Assembly (NCBI RefSeq): GCF_022378355.1
Contig: NZ_JAKMAJ010000015.1
Span: 1 to 64,000 of the forward strand
Direction: 5' to 3'
DNA: 64,000 bases
Source of the DNA: Brenneria bubanii
Lineage (GTDB): Bacteria; Pseudomonadota; Gammaproteobacteria; Enterobacterales; Enterobacteriaceae
Below the pieces are notes generated by a model. It did not search any database. It was not told where the DNA came from and saw nothing but the letters and a program-made list of their open reading frames with translations. The translations under genes and the position numbers were made by a program. Numbering within the stretch: position 1 is the stretch's first letter; each line of letters begins with the position of its first letter. Of the stretch, positions 23,683 through 32,208 are shown piece after piece.

Positions 23683-25338
23683 ATGTTCAACTCGAAACCA
23701 CAGGCCGCCGAAGCGGCGGAATCCGGCGGCGAAAAGCATCGCCACGACCAATTTGAACCCATTGAGTTAACGTTGGATAGCCTGCTCGAGGCCGAGCCGG
23801 AGCCGGAAATGATCGCAGGGCTGCCGCCCTCCGATGCGTTAACGCCCTCCGATCGTTACCTGGAGCTGTTCGAACGCGTTCAGTCTTCACGAATTTTCGA
23901 CGACAGCAAAACCTTCCCCGACTGCGCGCCCAAAATGGATCCGTTGGACATCCTCATTCATTATCGCCGAATGAAAAATCACCCCGACTTTGATCTAAAA
24001 CGGTTCGTCACAACCCATTTCTGGCTCCCGGAGCGCCAGAACAATGATTATGTCTCCAATCCGCAGCACTCCCTCAAAGATCATATCGATAATCTATGGA
24101 GCGTGTTGACCCGGGAGCCCGAGGATCACATTCCGTGGTCGTCGCTGCTGCCGCTGCCGCAGGCTTATATTGTGCCCGGCGGTCGTTTTAACGAAACCTA
24201 TTACTGGGACTCCTACTTCACAATGTTGGGATTGGCGGAGAGCGGACGCAACGACCTGCTGCGCTGTATGGCGGATAATTTCGCCTGGATGATCGAAACC
24301 TATGGGCACATTCCCAACGGCAACCGCACTTACTACCTGAGTCGTTCGCAACCGCCGGTATTCGCGCTGATGGTGGAATTGTTCGAAGAAGACGGCGTGC
24401 GCGGCACTCGCCGCTATCTGCAACACCTGCTGCTGGAGTATGCATTCTGGATGGACGGCGGTGAATCGCTGACGCCTAATCAGGCCTATCGTCATGTGGT
24501 GCGGATGCCGGACGGCGCGCTGCTGAACCGTTACTGGGACGACAGAGACACGCCGCGCGACGAATCCTGGCGCGAAGATGTGGAAACCGCAAAACGCTCA
24601 GGCCGCCCGGCGAATCTGGTTTACCGCGATCTGCGGGCTGGCGCCGCTTCGGGCTGGGACTACTCTTCGCGCTGGCTGCGCGATCCGCATCGCCTCGCCA
24701 GTATCCGCACAACACAGATTATCCCGGTGGACCTCAACGCGTTTCTTTACAAGCTGGAAAGCGTCATCGCCAATATGTCCATGTTGAAGGGGGATGGCGA
24801 CACGGAAACGCTATTTCGCCACAAGGCGGAAACTCGACGAGCCGCCATGACCCGCTATCTATGGGATGAAGCGGATGGCTGTTTTCGCGATTATGACTGG
24901 TATCGCCAGCAGTTGGCGCGCTTCAGCGCCGCCGGCATCGTGCCCCTTTATGTCGGACTCGCCACTCACGAACAGGCCGACCGGCTGGCGGAAGCGGTGC
25001 GCTCGCGCCTGCTTACCCCCGGAGGCCTGATGACCAGCGAGAATGAAAGCGGAGAACAATGGGATAAGCCCAACGGCTGGGCGCCGCTGCAATGGATGGC
25101 GATCCAGGGTTTCAAAATGTACGGTCATGATGTGCTTGGCGATGAGATTGCCCGTAACTGGTTGACAACGGTGGATCTTTTCTATCGGCGACACCATAAG
25201 CTGATTGAAAAATATCATATCGCCGATGGCGCGCCGCGCGCGGGTCGAGGGGGGGAATATCCGCTTCAGGATGGATTCGGCTGGACTAATGGCGTAGTTC
25301 GCCGGCTAATCGGCCTTTACGGCGAAAATAGCGGATGA
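23683..25338 (+). CDS. treF: Cytoplasmic trehalase TreF
   Basis: A 551-residue GH37 trehalase that splits trehalose into two glucoses. Both family signatures are present: [14 protein letters not shown] (about residues 165-178) and [14 protein letters not shown] (about 462-475). There is no signal peptide, so it is the cytoplasmic TreF type, not periplasmic TreA; the length matches TreF. It lies 53 bases after otsA on the same strand, so synthesis and degradation of trehalose are probably cotranscribed. E. coli treF is unlinked to otsBA. Confidence 0.93.
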
Positions 25339-25838
25339 TGTGTTGCACCACAATGGCACAACGCCAAATGGTGTATCGGCCAGGCCGGGAAGACAATGCG
25401 GCAGGCATTGGCGTCAATGCTGAAGCCGTTCCCCTATTTGCCCATCGAAAGCGCCGCGTTTTTTACGCTCCCCCCTCTCTCGACCTATCGCGCGCGCCAC
25501 GCCGGCCTTGATCTTAACGCTAAGGTGATCCATGATTGGCGCAAGGTGATGGCGTTCCACCTTCCCCAACCGCCCCAACCCACGGGGCTGATGACGCCTG
25601 ATATGACTCTTTTTCATTAACAAGAGGCGTGTCAGGCTGGTCAATAGTCCACTTCCAGTCCTGCATGCTTCCCCAAACAGACGTATTTCATGATAGAGAT
25701 TTTCAGACGGCGCAGCCTCAACGCCAAGCAACGCGCATGGCGTGACCCGCATAAAACCGGCTGGCCGGATGCTGCGCTAACGGAAAGAATCGTCATGGTG
25801 CGAAACGTATTTGAGGTAAAAAACAGAATGAGGGAAAC
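25339..25838. other. Intergenic region, no gene recognised
   Basis: Five hundred bases between treF and crcB. Open frames on both strands (for example 25396-25620 plus, 25414-25752 minus) show no family pattern or ribosome site. The crcB leader does not contain the conserved fluoride-riboswitch core as I know it. Confidence 0.4.
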
Positions 25839-26213
25839 ATGGTAAAATCGCTTTTCGCCGTTATTATCGGCGGTTCCGCAGGGTGCGTTATTCGCTGGCT
25901 ATTGTCCGTTCGTTTGAACAGCCTGTTCCCGAATCTTCCGCCGGGGACGCTGCTGGTCAATCTTCTGGGCGGTTTGATTATCGGCGCCGCATTGGCCTAT
26001 TTTCTACGCCAGCCGCAGCTCGATCCGGCATGGAAACTGCTCATCACCACCGGGCTGTGCGGAGGAATGACGACGTTTTCAACCTTCTCCGCCGAGATAT
26101 TTTCACTGCTGCAATCGGGCAACTATGTGTGGGCGGTGACGTCGGTGCTGATCCATGTGCTGGGTTCACTGTTGATGACGGCCGTCGGTTTCTTTCTGGT
26201 CACGCTGCTTTAG
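25839..26213 (+). CDS. crcB: Fluoride ion channel CrcB (Fluc)
   Basis: A 124-residue, four-helix inner-membrane protein that works as a dual-topology dimer to expel fluoride. Marks: GGSAGCVIRWLLS (GxxxR) at the N-terminus, PPGTLLVNLLGGLIIG, and the central GGMTTFSTFSAE with the Phe and Thr/Ser residues that line the pore. Standard length. ATG after GAGGGAAAC. Confidence 0.95.
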   Translation: MVKSLFAVIIGGSAGCVIRWLLSVRLNSLFPNLPPGTLLVNLLGGLIIGAALAYFLRQPQLDPAWKLLITTGLCGGMTTFSTFSAEIFSLLQSGNYVWAVTSVLIHVLGSLLMTAVGFFLVTLL

Positions 26214-26275
26214 CGATCCGCGCCGCGTCATTCTCCGACAACAGAAGGCGGCGAATGACGAGGGCGCTATTTCGG

Positions 26276-26974
26276 CTATATGCTGCGCCGGCGCAGCAGC
26301 AAACAGATCTGGCGCAGCGCCGCATACAGGGTGATGGTGCGAAAAATATCGCGCATCATTAAAGCATCGGCGCGCAAACCGCGCAGCCAGCCCATTTTAG
26401 CGGCCTTATAGGGGCTGGATACCCGCGGCCACTTCACCACCTTCAGTCGTAATTTATTGTCGATCCAAATATTATTAAGCCAGACCTCAAGCCCGAAATG
26501 CGGCAAATGGCGTAATTCATGCAGACGAGACTCAAGCAGCTTGCGGGCGAAAACACGCTCTCCCGAAATGTAATCCAGACCGATGGCGCGCCACACAAGC
26601 GGGCTATTTCGTCTCAGGCTGAGGCTGGCATCGACCTGCTGAAGTTTAACCGGTTGAATCAGGGACGTAATGTCATTCGCCGTCAATCCCACAAGGTCGG
26701 CATCAAGCAACAGCAGATGGCTGCCGGCCGCCGCCGCGACGCCTTCGGCCACGGCCCAGCTTTTGCCGCGGTTTTGACTGAGCCTGATAACGGTCACACC
26801 TCGCCCCTGCGCCACGCCGGCCGTATCGTCGTTGGATTTATCGTCGACGACGATAATTTCCGACAACAGCGGGTGATCGGCAACCGCGTCAAGCACGGCG
26901 CCGATGCGCGCAGCTTCATTATAAGCGGGGATGACGCAGCTGAAGGTAGCCGCTATTTCCCCCATTTCAGCCAC
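26276..26974 (-). CDS. Glycosyltransferase family 2 protein
   Basis: A 232-residue GT-A-fold transferase: CVIPAYNEAARIGAVLDA at the N-terminus, IIVVDDKSNDDT, NRGKSWAVAEG and LLLLDADLVGL (DxD metal and nucleotide-sugar site). It lacks long membrane segments apart from a possible amphipathic C-terminal end, and resembles polyprenyl-phosphate sugar transferases. The GTG/ATG start region overlaps the DedA gene by 22 bases; an internal ATG three residues later is also possible. Last gene of the GT21-DedA-GT2 operon. Substrate unknown; a lipid carrier or LPS sugar is likely from context. Confidence 0.8.
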   Translation of the reverse strand: MAEMGEIAATFSCVIPAYNEAARIGAVLDAVADHPLLSEIIVVDDKSNDDTAGVAQGRGVTVIRLSQNRGKSWAVAEGVAAAAGSHLLLLDADLVGLTANDITSLIQPVKLQQVDASLSLRRNSPLVWRAIGLDYISGERVFARKLLESRLHELRHLPHFGLEVWLNNIWIDNKLRLKVVKWPRVSSPYKAAKMGWLRGLRADALMMRDIFRTITLYAALRQICLLLRRRSI

Positions 26975-27522
26975 GCCATGCCTCCGACGAACAACAGAAC
27001 CAGCAGCACTAAAGATCCCCAGGCTATCCAGCCATCCACCTGCGCGGCGAAGTGGCCGAAAGCGTAGCCGATAGCCACAAAGAAAAGGCTTTTCGGCACG
27101 GTGGCCAGGGTGTTGTAAAACAAAAACGGGCGTATTCGCATTCGCGCCATTCCGGCCGCCAGCAGGATGGCCGCTCCGGCGGAATGAGTGAGCTTGCCAA
27201 ACGCCAATATTTTGCCGCCCCGGTGTTCAAAATTATTCACCAATCGCTGCAACCTGGCGTGACTGAGACCAAAACGCGTCAACCAGCGCGGCGGCTCACC
27301 ATCAGACTTGATCACCCAGCGCCCCATGGCATAGAAGCCGATGTCGCCCACCAGATCGGCCAAAATCACCACCACGCACACCGTGGTCAGATTAAAATAG
27401 TTAAGCTTCGCCAGGTAGGCGGCTATCACGGTAACGATCGGTCCTTCGATCACCGCCAGCGGGGTGAGCAACAGCAGGCCATGTTCTTCTATCAACCCTT
27501 CGATAGTTTGCAGCTCAAACAT
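26953..27522 (-). CDS. DedA-family membrane protein
   Basis: A 189-residue inner-membrane protein of the DedA/SNARE-associated family: IEGPIVTVIAAYLAKLNYFNL (acidic residue and re-entrant loop), ILADLVGDIGFYAMGRW, and an arginine-containing block MRIRPFLFYNTLA before the last helices. DedA members are reported as undecaprenyl-phosphate flippases (UptA/PopT work) and affect polymyxin resistance in several bacteria. Here it sits between two glycosyltransferases, 15 bases after the GT21 gene, so a role in recycling or presenting a lipid carrier is plausible. Confidence 0.85.
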   Translation of the reverse strand: MFELQTIEGLIEEHGLLLLTPLAVIEGPIVTVIAAYLAKLNYFNLTTVCVVVILADLVGDIGFYAMGRWVIKSDGEPPRWLTRFGLSHARLQRLVNNFEHRGGKILAFGKLTHSAGAAILLAAGMARMRIRPFLFYNTLATVPKSLFFVAIGYAFGHFAAQVDGWIAWGSLVLLVLLFVGGMAWLKWGK

Positions 27523-27537
27523 CAGATTATCGTCTCT

Positions 27538-28677
27538 TTACTCGTCACGCCGTTGATGATCAACCAGCGGTTGCTCGGAACTCACAACATTGCCTCGCCA
27601 GACGATACTGCGTCCGGACCAGCACCATAACCATAGCGCGGGCAGCAGGACGTCGCGAATCAACATCGCCAGCACATCCCGCAGCCGGTGCGGCCACCCC
27701 AGCACGCGAGCCATGCCCCACTCCGCGCCGAACCACAACACTAGCAGAACAGGAGGCCAAATCCACGACAATATCCCCTCGCCGGCCAGCCAGATGGCGC
27801 AGCCCAATGGCGGCAAAACGCCCAACACTATTTCCGGGATAAACAATCCCAGAAAGCCGAAACGCCGGATCCGAGCCCAGCGTAGCTGCCTGCTCCAGAC
27901 GGCCGCAAAGCTACGCCGACCAATCGGCTGAGGATAAGGACGCGGCGGCAAACGAACCTTTAAGCCTGCACGGCGCACCAGTTTGGTTGAGGCCACATCT
28001 TCCGCCATTTCCCCTCCCAGCGCCACCAGACCGCCGCCTTTTTCCAGCACATCGCGTCGCCAAAACAATGTCTTGCCCTGCGCGAACCCCTGCCCGGCGA
28101 TGTCCGACAAAAACTGCCAGCGCGCCTGATGGGTATTCAGCATCGCCGCCTCAACCGCGCCCCATAAATTTTCAGGCCGGATGCCGACCGCAGGTGAACT
28201 GACGAGCCCGGTTCGATCGTCGGCAGAGGAAATAAGGGAACGCAGATAATCGACAGGCAGCAACAGATTACTGTCCGCCATCGCCACCCAACCGGCGCGG
28301 CTGCGCTGCCAGGCCTTGAACAGATTGTTAATCTTGGGGTTACCGGTCACTTTGTCATCGCCGATCAGCAATCGCGCCGAGCGCCCGGGGTATTCCGTAA
28401 TCAGCTTTTCCACCAGGGGGATAACCGGATCCTGCCGGGACGCGACGCAAAAAAGGATTTCGTAATGGGGATAGTCTTGCATAAAACAGGAGCGCAGCGT
28501 CTCTTCCTCAAAACGGTCCACCCCGCACAACGGACGGGCCAGGGAGATGAAGGGATAGTCGCGAGAAGATGTTTTCACCGGGCGCCGCAATCGCCACAAC
28601 GCCAGACCAAGAGAGGAAAACTGAATAACCGTCAGGATAACGAGAATTACGATAATAATTTGATTTATCAATGTCAT
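27538..28677 (-). CDS. GT21-like glycosyltransferase (ceramide glucosyltransferase / HpnI type)
   Basis: A 379-residue membrane glycosyltransferase: N-terminal helix, then the GT-A domain with DYPHYEILFCVA, MADSNLLLP (D2), GEMAEDVASTKL (D3) and the QLRWARIRR motif (QxxRW), followed by two or three C-terminal membrane segments. This set is that of ceramide glucosyltransferase and hopanoid HpnI. No sphingolipid or hopanoid gene is in the window, so the acceptor is probably another membrane lipid or lipid A part. First gene of a three-gene operon; a PmrA-box-like repeat lies about 170 bases upstream. Confidence 0.8.
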   Translation of the reverse strand: MTLINQIIIVILVILTVIQFSSLGLALWRLRRPVKTSSRDYPFISLARPLCGVDRFEEETLRSCFMQDYPHYEILFCVASRQDPVIPLVEKLITEYPGRSARLLIGDDKVTGNPKINNLFKAWQRSRAGWVAMADSNLLLPVDYLRSLISSADDRTGLVSSPAVGIRPENLWGAVEAAMLNTHQARWQFLSDIAGQGFAQGKTLFWRRDVLEKGGGLVALGGEMAEDVASTKLVRRAGLKVRLPPRPYPQPIGRRSFAAVWSRQLRWARIRRFGFLGLFIPEIVLGVLPPLGCAIWLAGEGILSWIWPPVLLVLWFGAEWGMARVLGWPHRLRDVLAMLIRDVLLPALWLWCWSGRSIVWRGNVVSSEQPLVDHQRRDE

Positions 28678-28844
28678 GCCATTCTGTTCCTGCTCAATAT
28701 TAGGCCGAAAAGCCGGCGGATTCGTCTGCCTTTAATCTTAGCTGCTATCTGGCCTTTACACTTTTTATCCCGCTCATCTTTCAAATCGTCAGGGATAACG
28801 GCGACTGACCACAATCCTTTGCCGGCCTATCCTGGGGCGCATTT

Positions 28845-28861
28845 CTTAAGAAAATCTTAAA
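28845..28861 (-). promoter_or_regulatory. PmrA (BasR)-box-like direct repeat ahead of the GT21-DedA-GT2 operon
   Basis: On the minus strand TTTAAG-ATTTT-CTTAAG fits the PmrA consensus YTTAAK-N5-YTTAAK at every defined position. It lies 168 bases before the GT21 start, and the only gene it can serve is that operon, since kdpD reads towards it and ends at 28936. No clear -10 hexamer is visible at the expected distance, so the call is motif only. PmrAB responds to iron, low pH and antimicrobial peptides and controls LPS modification genes. Confidence 0.55.
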
Positions 28862-28935
28862 AGACACGACTCTACGCGCTCGATGTGACAATAATTTTTC
28901 CTGTGACGACCCATGCCGGATATTGGAGCGCGACT

Positions 28936-31626
28936 TCATCGCGCCTCCGCCGGATTCTCCTCCAGCAATGGCTCCGGCGGCAAGGGAAGAATCAGGGTGA
29001 AACAGGCGCCGCCTTGCTCACGGTTGGTTGCCGTGATTTCCCCATGATGCATATCCACAATCGCACGGCAAATAGCCAGCCCCATGCCGACCCCGGGAAT
29101 AGCCGACTCTTCGCGCCCGCGGGTAAATTTCTCAAAAATCAGCTGTTCTTTACCGGCAGGCAAACCCGGCCCATTATCCCAGACATCGATGCTGACCTTG
29201 TGCGCCAGTTTTCGTGCTTTGATGCCAATTTTCCCGTTTTTACCGGCATATTTCAGCGCATTCTCCAGCAGATTGACGAAAACGCGCTCCAACAGCGGTC
29301 CGTCGGCCTGAAGTAGCACCATGTCCTGCGGCAAATTCAGCTGAACGTCATCGGCAGGCAAAATTGCCTCCAGCGATTTAAGGGTACTGCCAATCACCTC
29401 TTCAAGCGCGACCCAATCGGTTTTCAGCCGAAACCCATCCGCTTCGATACGCGCCATATCCAACATATTATTCACCAGACGAATGGTGCTGAGCGTTTGC
29501 AGCCGGATATCACTGGCCTGCTGCGCATGCTTAGACCCGGCGGACGACAGATCGAGCGTCAGAATTTCCGTCATGCCGAACAGTACGGTCAGCGGGGTGC
29601 GAAGATCGTGAGACAATGCCGCCAGCAGCGAATTTCTCAGCTCTTCGCGCTCCGCCGCCAGTCGCGCCTGCTGTTCGCGTCGGGTAAGCTCCAGGCGCTC
29701 AAGCGCGCCGGAGATTAACATCATGAAGGTATCCAGCAGGCGATTCTGTTCCGGTATCATGAGATGACGCAGGTTACTGGGCTCGATAATCAGCAGTCCC
29801 AAGGTGCGTTCGGAAGATAGAATCGGCAGAATCTTGTAAGGCACGCCGGGCAGCGTGTCGGTGCCGGCGCCGGCGGCCTGCCCTTTATCGAAACTCCACT
29901 TGATAATCGCCGCGTCCGGCAGCGCATCCAGCATGCGCTCCGGCGGCGCGATCAGCGCGCCCTGTTGATCGGGAAGCCAGATTTCGCATCTGGCGAGCAA
30001 CGCGGCGCCGACCACCCGCTGGCAGATTTGCGCGATTTCACTCTGCCTGCGCGCCCGGCTTAATCCGTCCGCCATTTCATACAGATAGCGCGCGCGTTGC
30101 TCCCGGTGTCTGGCGACCCGGGCCTGATAGCGAACGCCGGCAGTGAGGTTGCCGGTGATCACGCCTACCGCCAGCATTACCGAAAAGGTCACCAGGTACT
30201 GGGCGTCGATAACCGCAAAGGTGCCCTCTGGCGCGACAAAAAACAGATCAAACGCCACGATGTTCAGCAATGCCGCCGCCACGGACGGAAGACGACCGAA
30301 ACCAATCGCGATCAGCACCACCCCCAGCAGGTAAATCATCACCAGATTGATGGGGGAGAAACCGGGCAACAACCATTTGCTCAATAGCGTAATCAGGGCG
30401 CACAGCGCCGCGGCCGCCAGACAACCGCGTAACTGCTGCCCCCATTTATCCGTAGCGCCGCGGGCGTCGGCGGCGCGGCCGGCATTGATGTCGGGCGTAT
30501 CGTCCAGGGCAATGACGATCAAATCCAGATCAGGGCCAAGGCGGCTCAGACGTCCGGCGAAACGATGAGCAAAGCGCCACCTGCGCTGCGGCGGTCGGCC
30601 GACGATGATCTTACCCAGATTGTGTTCGCGCGCATATCGCAGCGCCGCTTTCGCCTCATCCGCATCGGATAAGGTTGCGGTAACCGCCCCCATGTTTTGC
30701 GCCAGTTGCAACGTCCGTAGAATATTCCGCCGCCGCGTTTCGCCCTGACGGCGCAACGTCGGCGTTTCCACGGTAATCGCATGCCATTCGCTGCCCAGCC
30801 TGGCGGCGAGTCTGGCGGCAATACGCACCAGTTTTTCACTGCCGGTGCCGGCGCCGATGCATAATAGAATCGCATCGCGGGTATGCCAGACTTTTTCTTC
30901 GCGCCCGCGGGCATCGCGCCAGGCGCGCATCTGGTCGTCGACGCGATCAGCCGTGCGCCTCAACGCCAGTTCACGCAAGGCGAACAGATTACCTTTACGG
31001 AAAAAGTTTTCGATGGCGCGCTCAGCGCGGTCGCCGACGTAAACTTTGCCCTCTTTGATGCGCTGACGCAGGTCGTCCGGCGGCAAATCGACCAGCACCA
31101 CTTCGGCGGCGGAATCAAAAAACGGATCCGGCACGGTTTCCCGCACCCAGATGCCGGTAACGCCGCTAACCACGTCATTAAGGCTTTCAAGATGCTGGAC
31201 ATTGACCGTGGTCAATACATCAATCCCCGCATCCAGCAACTCGTCAATGTCCTGCCAACGCTTCGGATGCCGGGCGCCGCGCGCATTGGAATGCGCCAAC
31301 TCGTCCATCAATATCACTGCCGGACGCCGCGCCAGCGCCGCATCAAGATCGAACGCCTGATGGCGGTTCCGTCCGGTGACGCGGCGGGGCAGGATTTCCA
31401 GGCCCTCCAGCAGCGCCGCGGTTTCCTGTCGGCCGTGCGTTTCCACCACGCCGACAATCACATCCAGCCCCTGCGCCCGCAGACGGCGCGCTTCCTGCAG
31501 CATGGCCCAGGTTTTTCCTACCCCGGCGCAGGCGCCGAAATAAATTTTCAGCTTGCCTCGAACATCGCTATCGGCCTGAGCCAGCAGCACGTCCGGATCC
31601 GGGCGCAGGGGTTCTTCCGTCATCAT
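28936..31626 (-). CDS. kdpD: Potassium sensor histidine kinase KdpD
   Basis: An 896-residue KdpD of normal length. Order: N-terminal KdpD domain with Walker A GACAGVGKTWAML (31-43), a USP-like domain, four membrane helices (about 400-500), a GAF-like region, HisKA with LSHDLRTPLTV (His673) and an HATPase with NLLENALKYAG and DNGPGLP. It senses low potassium or turgor and phosphorylates KdpE. It follows kdpC by 6 bases. Unusually, no kdpE follows: the 258 bases downstream are non-coding and run into another operon's promoter. Confidence 0.95.
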   Translation of the reverse strand: MMTEEPLRPDPDVLLAQADSDVRGKLKIYFGACAGVGKTWAMLQEARRLRAQGLDVIVGVVETHGRQETAALLEGLEILPRRVTGRNRHQAFDLDAALARRPAVILMDELAHSNARGARHPKRWQDIDELLDAGIDVLTTVNVQHLESLNDVVSGVTGIWVRETVPDPFFDSAAEVVLVDLPPDDLRQRIKEGKVYVGDRAERAIENFFRKGNLFALRELALRRTADRVDDQMRAWRDARGREEKVWHTRDAILLCIGAGTGSEKLVRIAARLAARLGSEWHAITVETPTLRRQGETRRRNILRTLQLAQNMGAVTATLSDADEAKAALRYAREHNLGKIIVGRPPQRRWRFAHRFAGRLSRLGPDLDLIVIALDDTPDINAGRAADARGATDKWGQQLRGCLAAAALCALITLLSKWLLPGFSPINLVMIYLLGVVLIAIGFGRLPSVAAALLNIVAFDLFFVAPEGTFAVIDAQYLVTFSVMLAVGVITGNLTAGVRYQARVARHREQRARYLYEMADGLSRARRQSEIAQICQRVVGAALLARCEIWLPDQQGALIAPPERMLDALPDAAIIKWSFDKGQAAGAGTDTLPGVPYKILPILSSERTLGLLIIEPSNLRHLMIPEQNRLLDTFMMLISGALERLELTRREQQARLAAEREELRNSLLAALSHDLRTPLTVLFGMTEILTLDLSSAGSKHAQQASDIRLQTLSTIRLVNNMLDMARIEADGFRLKTDWVALEEVIGSTLKSLEAILPADDVQLNLPQDMVLLQADGPLLERVFVNLLENALKYAGKNGKIGIKARKLAHKVSIDVWDNGPGLPAGKEQLIFEKFTRGREESAIPGVGMGLAICRAIVDMHHGEITATNREQGGACFTLILPLPPEPLLEENPAEAR

Positions 31627-31632
31627 GATTCC

Positions 31633-32208
31633 TTAAGGTTTCTGCAACGCGTCCAGCGCCAGGTTCAATGCCAATACGTTGACCACCGGCTCGCCCATAA
31701 AGTACAACGCCGGACGCGCGGTATTCGCCGCCACCAGCCGACGGATATCCGCTTCAGGCAGACGGCGCGCTTGCGCCACGCGCGGCACCTGCCATTCGGC
31801 GGCGGTCGGCGAAATATGCGGATCCAGCCCGCTGCCCGAAGCCGTGACCAACTCGGTCGGCACCCGCGGAGCAGCCTGTGGGTTAGCCGCTCTCAGCTCA
31901 ACTATACGCTGTTTTATCGCTTCGTCCTGCGCCGGATTGCTGACGGCCAGATTGCTGCCCGAAGACGCCAGCGGATTATAAGGCGCCTGCGCCGTCGCGG
32001 AAGGCCGCCCCTGGAAATAGTCCGGCCGGGTGAAGTGCTGACCAAGCAGCGCGGCGCCGCGTAGCTGACCATTCCGCACCACCAATGCGCCGTTCGCCGT
32101 CGCAGGGAACCACCACTGGGCAAGCGCCGTGGTCAACAGGGGATAGGCCGCGCCGCCAATCAGCGTCAGCAGGATAAAAAGCGAAAGAGCGGGACGTAAC
32201 ATATTCAT
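31633..32208 (-). CDS. kdpC: Potassium-transporting ATPase KdpC subunit
   Basis: A 191-residue bitopic protein with one N-terminal helix and the KdpC periplasmic domain: [36 protein letters not shown], and VARARRLP-like VAQARRLPE near residue 150, ending with [13 protein letters not shown]. It stabilises the KdpA-KdpB complex. It lies 11 bases after kdpB with a GGAGG ribosome site. Confidence 0.96.

Follow-up and report, generated by a model that had tools for sequence, protein, structure and literature searches.

A likely membrane-lipid glycosylation operon behind a conserved CTTAAG-type box in Brenneria, and its possible relation to phospholipid-to-glycolipid remodelling

We analysed a stretch of 64,000 nucleotides of Brenneria bubanii (assembly GCF_022378355.1, contig NZ_JAKMAJ010000015.1, positions 1 to 64,000 of the forward strand; hereafter the window), in which three genes on the minus strand, encoding two glycosyltransferases and a membrane protein, form an operon behind a tandem CTTAAG-type box. 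A first-pass annotation, made from the letters alone, had placed the three open reading frames, joined by a 15-nt gap and a 22-nt overlap, exactly where we find them, and had read them as an envelope lipid glycosylation system under PmrAB control. Judging from the sequences, the operon very likely does glycosylate a membrane lipid, and the operator-like box at its head is conserved; it is the PmrAB part of that interpretation that did not hold. The features of the locus are as follows.

28845..28861, minus strand: tandem CTTAAG-type box, TTTAAG-ATTTT-CTTAAG (TTTAAGATTTTCTTAAG), predicted as a probable QseB/PmrA-type operator
28678..28844, minus strand: 167-nt leader, from the box to the GT21 start
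27538..28677, minus strand: GT21 glycosyltransferase (ceramide/diacylglycerol glycosyltransferase-like), 379 aa; Pfam PF13506 Glyco_transf_21, 164 bits
26953..27522, minus strand: divergent VTT-domain (DedA superfamily) membrane protein, 189 aa; Pfam PF09335 VTT_dom, 53.2 bits (cut-off 33.9)
26276..26974, minus strand: GT2 (GT-A) glycosyltransferase, 232 aa, overlapping the VTT gene by 22 nt; Pfam PF00535 Glycos_transf_2, 79.6 bits
28936..31626, minus strand: kdpD, 896 aa, the upstream neighbour, outside the operon

The closest solved structure to the GT21 enzyme is a ceramide glucosyltransferase (E 2e-34, by sequence match to the PDB). Residues D135, D227 and QLRW 264-267 are invariant across seven aligned sequences, the window's included, and so bear out the motifs D2, D3 and QxxRW that had been read from it earlier; these are the motif names used for GT21-type glycosyltransferases such as HpnI and ceramide glucosyltransferase. 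An identity as HpnI itself was rejected, since the protein reaches 198.8 bits with that NCBIfam model, whose equivalog cut-off is 310. The second gene had been called a DedA protein, and a VTT domain is indeed present; the protein is, however, divergent, falling far below the equivalog cut-offs (UptA 38.3 of 250 bits, DedA 35 of 236), while in the alignment with Escherichia coli YqjA and DedA the canonical motifs PGD and GRF..R, as read off those two proteins, are replaced by IEGPI and GKLTHSAGA. Known DedA functions are therefore not simply transferable to it. For the third gene the earlier assignment to GT2 agrees with Pfam; no NCBIfam model scores above its cut-off, and the best PDB sequence match is glucosyl-3-phosphoglycerate synthase (E 1e-6).

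The operon occurs in four of the ten Brenneria genomes sampled, the window genome included (G000, the window genome; G002, G008 and G009). In the three other carriers a phosphoesterase gene stands first, between the box and the GT21 gene and overlapping the latter, so that the order is phosphoesterase-GT21-VTT-GT2. By sequence this phosphoesterase is PlcP-like: the G002 protein scores 122.7 bits against Pseudomonas aeruginosa PlcP versus 28.6-34.4 bits against ten Brenneria LpxH proteins, and in a tree of 20 rows LpxH splits off at 100/100, with PlcP on the side of the operon phosphoesterases. The operon proteins are not set off from PlcP as a single clade in this tree, which also has one long branch of doubtful placement. 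We rejected an identity of the relatives' phosphoesterase as LpxH on the strength of that split and of scores of 39.4 of 190.35 and 43.2 of 134 bits. The PlcP reference comes from a P. aeruginosa plasmid segment in which a phosphoesterase and a glycosyltransferase gene lie side by side next to a cyclase gene; from the gene order of PAO1 we take this pair to be PlcP and Agt1, PA3219-PA3218. Agt1 has been placed immediately downstream of PA3219 (PMC8528852; here and below, statements taken from the literature are those of excerpts of the papers cited).

A phosphoesterase gene also directly precedes GT21 in six of seven named loci, Acinetobacter sp. MB5 being without it; the order phosphoesterase-GT21-VTT-GT2 is likewise annotated in Gemmobacter fulvus, and the Pannonibacter gene table contains no VTT. 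Within a flank of about 1.5 kb, a phosphoesterase was found in five and a VTT gene in five of the 29 phylum-level loci L124-L152, a set that covers part of the phylum-level matches (eight further ones lie outside the count), and neither gene was found in the 16 class-level loci L108-L123. The upstream regions of L124 and L125 look the same as those of the named loci L008 and L009, so these locus counts are not independent. On a Thioclava plasmid (L060), the phosphoesterase and GT21 genes are apparently broken up, with transposase genes adjoining.

The window genome is without a PlcP-like gene, its sole phosphoesterase match at E 0.001 being LpxH, and the full pathway is thus not present there. 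Purifying selection acts on the window copies (dN/dS 0.10-0.21 across the three genes; for GT21 against the other carriers 0.10-0.14, at dS 1.4-2.0), which suggests that the operon, though shortened, probably still functions.

The closest known system is the PlcP-Agt lipid renovation pathway of P. aeruginosa (PA3219-PA3218), SAR11 and Agrobacterium, in which a PlcP-like phosphoesterase lies directly before a lipid glycosyltransferase, as in the three carriers with the longer operon. There are differences: Agt belongs to family GT4 (PMC8231724), whereas the Brenneria enzyme is a GT21; the Brenneria operon adds the VTT protein and GT2; a CTTAAG-type box apparently takes the place of the Pho box of PlcP-Agt; and the window copy lacks PlcP. 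The GT21 family is shared with the processive Pgt glycosyltransferases of Mesorhizobium loti and Agrobacterium, which transfer galactose and glucose to diacylglycerol or ceramide (PMC3972451, PMC8231724). In gene-arrangement types 3 and 5, plcP neighbours glycosyltransferases that include one of the Pgt kind (PMC4796936), and Agrobacterium pgt has a predicted Pho box (PMC3972451).

By analogy with these systems we infer that the product of the operon is a glycosyl-diacylglycerol. In its full form, the PlcP-like phosphoesterase would release diacylglycerol from a phospholipid and GT21 would add one or more sugars to it from a UDP-sugar; the VTT protein may carry the lipid or glycolipid across the bilayer, substrate and direction of this transport being putative, and GT2 may add a further sugar or load a lipid carrier. 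The window copy, without the phosphoesterase, would draw on another source of diacylglycerol. It is possible, if on balance unlikely, that the glycosyltransferases act instead on another lipid (ceramide, a hopanoid or polyprenyl phosphate), for example in surface decoration, and that the phosphoesterase acts on a sugar nucleotide or a non-phospholipid lipid phosphate. The likeness of GT21 to ceramide glucosyltransferase and HpnI, with which it has family and motifs in common, would suit such an acceptor, as would the weak match of the UptA model to the VTT protein, whose superfamily includes carrier-lipid transporters, and the lack of PlcP in the window operon. Against it stand the score below the HpnI cut-off and the PlcP-like first gene of the three other carriers. 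The operon partners of HpnI differ from those in Brenneria.

Turning to the box, we confirmed the reported exact match to YTTAAK-N5-YTTAAK ahead of the operon, at 28845-28861 on the minus strand, 74 nt beyond the kdpD stop. It is the sole exact match in the window, shuffles of which contained on average 0.07 matches, with at least one in 7 of 100; in 0.04% of 5000 dinucleotide shuffles of a 262-nt stretch, made up of the 258-nt gap between kdpD and GT21 and 4 nt of kdpD itself, the coding strand acquired an exact match. The whole window genome holds nine exact sites, equal to the nine of a reversed control pattern and hence without enrichment; the other eight lie on contigs C1, C5, C6, C8, C10 and C15. 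With the genome-wide count at control level, a single match means little, and it is conservation that carries the argument.

A box precedes the first operon gene in all four Brenneria carriers, and for this reason we take it to be above chance. It reads TTTAAGATTTTCTTAAG in the window, CTTAATATTTCCTTAAG in G002 and G008, and GTTAAGATTTCCTTAAG, with one mismatch, in G009; the other three are exact. The 17-nt box of the window shows 82-88% identity to those of the other carriers, compared with 24-28% for the 25 nt before it and 40-56% for the 25 nt after it. The chance of an equal match in coding-strand shuffles was 0.0016 and 0.0010 for G002 and G008, and 0.043 for the one-mismatch box of G009. 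That the box arose by chance and persists through shared ancestry alone is very unlikely, given its identity next to an upstream flank that has drifted so far and an operon dS of 1.1-2.0, even though the genome-wide counts equal those of the control and G002 and G008 are close upstream of the box as well (box 100%, 25 nt before it 64%, 25 nt after it 80%). The first-pass annotation had taken a consistent lack of the box from homologous operons as counting against it; the outcome is split, the box being present in all four Brenneria carriers (in one with a mismatch) and in none of 13 upstream regions outside the genus, where no sequence reaches 11 of the 12 box positions and the best, in Acinetobacter, has 10. 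Anywhere in the 45 loci L108-L152, a one-mismatch box occurs in four and an exact one in none.

Tandem boxes of this form are those of PmrA-regulated genes such as arnB and eptA in E. coli and Salmonella, and both the exact fit to the PmrA consensus and the coupling of box and envelope genes would suit the original proposal of a PmrA-controlled envelope glycosylation operon acting on lipopolysaccharide or an undecaprenyl lipid. In a search of the ten Brenneria genomes for BasR/PmrA orthologs at E <= 1e-45, however, none turned up in any of the four carriers, the window genome included, and PmrAB control was rejected on that ground. A true PmrA (63%) occurs in one genome, G005, which has no operon. 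There the regulator adjoins an EptA-domain gene and a kinase gene, between flanks that by eye resemble fkpA and yheO; in the window genome (L097, contig C11) the interval between those flanks holds an eptA fragment only and no regulator, the pmrCAB locus being reduced to that fragment. The best BasR match of the window genome is QseB, with 44% identity to BasR and 69% to E. coli QseB. No exact box lies on the window-genome contigs of arnA (C12) or the eptA fragment (C11), and L104-L106, loci that include the arnB upstream region, contain none with at most one mismatch. GT21, moreover, resembles lipid glycosyltransferases, and we regard the PmrA proposal as highly improbable.

ArnA, taken as a marker of the arn operon, was found in three of the ten Brenneria genomes, all of them carriers, with no ArnA match in G009. 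A search for the ArnT domain PF18583 gave no match anywhere, the control genomes being equally blank, and so carries no information. In L104-L106, as read by eye, the arn operon of three Brenneria has a MipA-like gene and a two-component system next to it, and efflux-like genes in the vicinity.

With no PmrA found in the carriers, its paralog QseB is the likeliest reader of the box, a binding that we infer from sequence. QseB is present in all four carriers (67-69% identity to E. coli QseB in G000, G002 and G009; by alignment in G008), and a QseC-like kinase gene adjoins qseB in the three carriers examined. A near-identical tandem box, CTTAAC-N5-CTTAAG, which departs from the PmrA pattern at a single position, lies upstream of qseB itself in G000, G002, G007, G008 and G009, five of the nine Brenneria genomes with such a regulator having been examined, and in E. 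coli. The PmrA residues involved in specific recognition have been named (PMC3973317); Brenneria QseB keeps the base-contact residues N188, H193 and H195, with the changes K153R and T187S. Glaesserella QseB binds a promoter fragment with CTTAAN4CTTAG (PMC10714720), and Salmonella QseB (PreA), when overexpressed, raises yibD, pmrAB, cptA and ygiW, known PmrA-regulated genes among them (PMC2653508). The QseB (PreA) regulon includes qseBC and ygiW. In the excerpts of three papers on the regulator (PMC10729948, PMC2653508, PMC10714720), the QseB targets named include no operon for lipid remodelling.

Other readers were considered and set aside. KdpE has none of N188, H193 and H195, and at each of the five recognition positions its residue is not that of BasR; the arn-linked response regulator retains H193 alone among the five base-contact residues, and in G009 the box occurs with no ArnA match. 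Vibrio cholerae VC1638-39 was dropped as a QseBC-like precedent, with 20% identity and no peptide-sensitivity phenotype in the excerpted text (PMC5636140).

A further alternative, which we consider unlikely, is that phosphate, through PhoB, controls what is a glycolipid remodelling operon, with the CTTAAG box incidental or a mere part of the promoter. It has in its favour that, according to the excerpts describing them, PlcP-Agt and Pgt relatives either carry a predicted Pho box or react to a shortage of phosphate. In the four Brenneria upstream regions, however, no Pho box exceeded chance (best 8-9 of 14 positions, p 0.70-0.98), in a scan that is weak, the positive control P. aeruginosa plcP itself reaching 10/14 at p 0.12. 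A PhoP box was rejected in the absence of a consistent site in the four carriers; one 10/12 match in G008 (p 0.035) is not shared. Outside Brenneria, PhoP-like matches occur in L008 (p 0.000), L011 (0.005), L124 (0.015) and L125 (0.040).

The distribution of GT21 is patchy, which suggests that the operon was probably acquired horizontally by Brenneria. At E 1e-20, a sample of 394 genomes of the order yielded GT21 once, in the window's own genome; G002, G008 and G009, which would have matched, were evidently outside that sample. At E 1e-40 GT21 was found in 15 of 369 genomes of the class and 34 of 398 of the phylum, the window genome included in each. The top phylum-level match, from outside the class, scores 668 bits against 667 for the window, with a profile that itself contains Rhodobacterales sequences; Rhodobacterales and Acinetobacter sp. 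MB5 are the named GT21 relatives. Thirty-seven records of the plasmid collection match GT21, all below 60% identity; most of them bear the names Sinorhizobium, Mycetohabitans and Paraburkholderia. The E. coli genomes gave no DNA match to window positions 24000-32000.

Operon neighbourhoods differ among carriers: kdpD and crcB in the window, tRNA-Val in G009, and different genes again in G002 and G008, where the downstream side is common to both. The tRNA-Val lies directly upstream of the G009 operon (L020:8770-8846) and may mark an integration site. Between the window and G002 the operon proteins are 67-74% identical at dS 1.1-2.0, against 83-96% and dS 0.47-0.96 for nine comparison genes; relative to G009 the excess is small (GT21 72%, dS 1.45; three comparison genes 75-94%, dS 0.97-1.35). 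As dS is near saturation, the extra divergence of the operon is a mere hint of a separate history.

Taken together, we see an about even chance that this is a horizontally acquired operon, related to PlcP/GT21 phospholipid-to-glycolipid remodelling, behind a box most likely read by QseB. Several points weigh against it, among them the alternative lipid acceptors, the genome-wide box counts and the want of a PlcP-like gene in the window genome, all given above. The likeness to Pgt is one of GT21 family and gene arrangement. The one-mismatch box of G009 was equalled or bettered on either strand in 6.5% of 200 shuffles, and no promoter-like site was found beside the window box. PmrA R210 is a histidine in Brenneria QseB, and the QseB consensus given in a study of enteropathogenic E. 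coli (PMC10729948) differs from the Brenneria box. In Salmonella, pmrAB is itself among the genes raised by PreA, which may therefore act on PmrA genes indirectly, by way of PmrA; the same study saw no effect of PreA/PreB on the peptide resistance mediated by PmrAB (PMC2653508).

A wider scenario, which we offer tentatively and think rather doubtful, is that the PmrAB/EptA lipid A system disappeared from Brenneria, which instead imported a phospholipid-to-glycolipid cassette, controlled by phosphate elsewhere and now behind a PmrA-type box served by QseB; the glycolipid made by this cassette would replace lipid A modification against antimicrobial peptides. P. aeruginosa mutants without the glycolipid survive polymyxin B poorly, and both P. 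aeruginosa glycosyltransferases raised polymyxin B survival in E. coli (PMC8528852); the renovation of lipids through PlcP together with a glycosyltransferase is already known as a response to phosphate starvation that in Pseudomonas also guards against polymyxin B (PMC8528852). If true, the scenario would be a case of regulatory inheritance by a paralog, and would tie the envelope glycolipids of a plant-associated enterobacterium to antimicrobial-peptide or quorum-type signalling, not to phosphate. It would also offer a natural case of QseB at work without PmrA, which bears on what QseB alone recognises. In the open-licence PMC literature, we found no paper joining lipid remodelling with PmrA, diacylglycerol and glycolipid, nor one joining ceramide glucosyltransferase with DedA in a bacterial glycolipid operon, and Brenneria is not mentioned among the matches listed.

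Some minor features of the locus may be added. No sigma-70-like promoter was found between the box and GT21, the regional scan returning 2 sites versus 1.9 in shuffles, and a terminator scan was not above chance. A short TTGAAAGATGA-like stretch, perhaps an intergenic repeat, is common to the window leader (28678-28844) and the region upstream of the phosphoesterase in L019. Downstream of the operon lies crcB, on the opposite strand. Upstream, kdpE is not found behind the window kdpD; the sole close KdpE of the window genome is an orphan on another contig (G000:C1:148350-149015). This KdpE is 88% identical to that of G002 and 65% to that of G006, whereas the window KdpD is 85% identical to that of G006 and 64% to that of G002, so that the two may form a mixed kinase-regulator pair.

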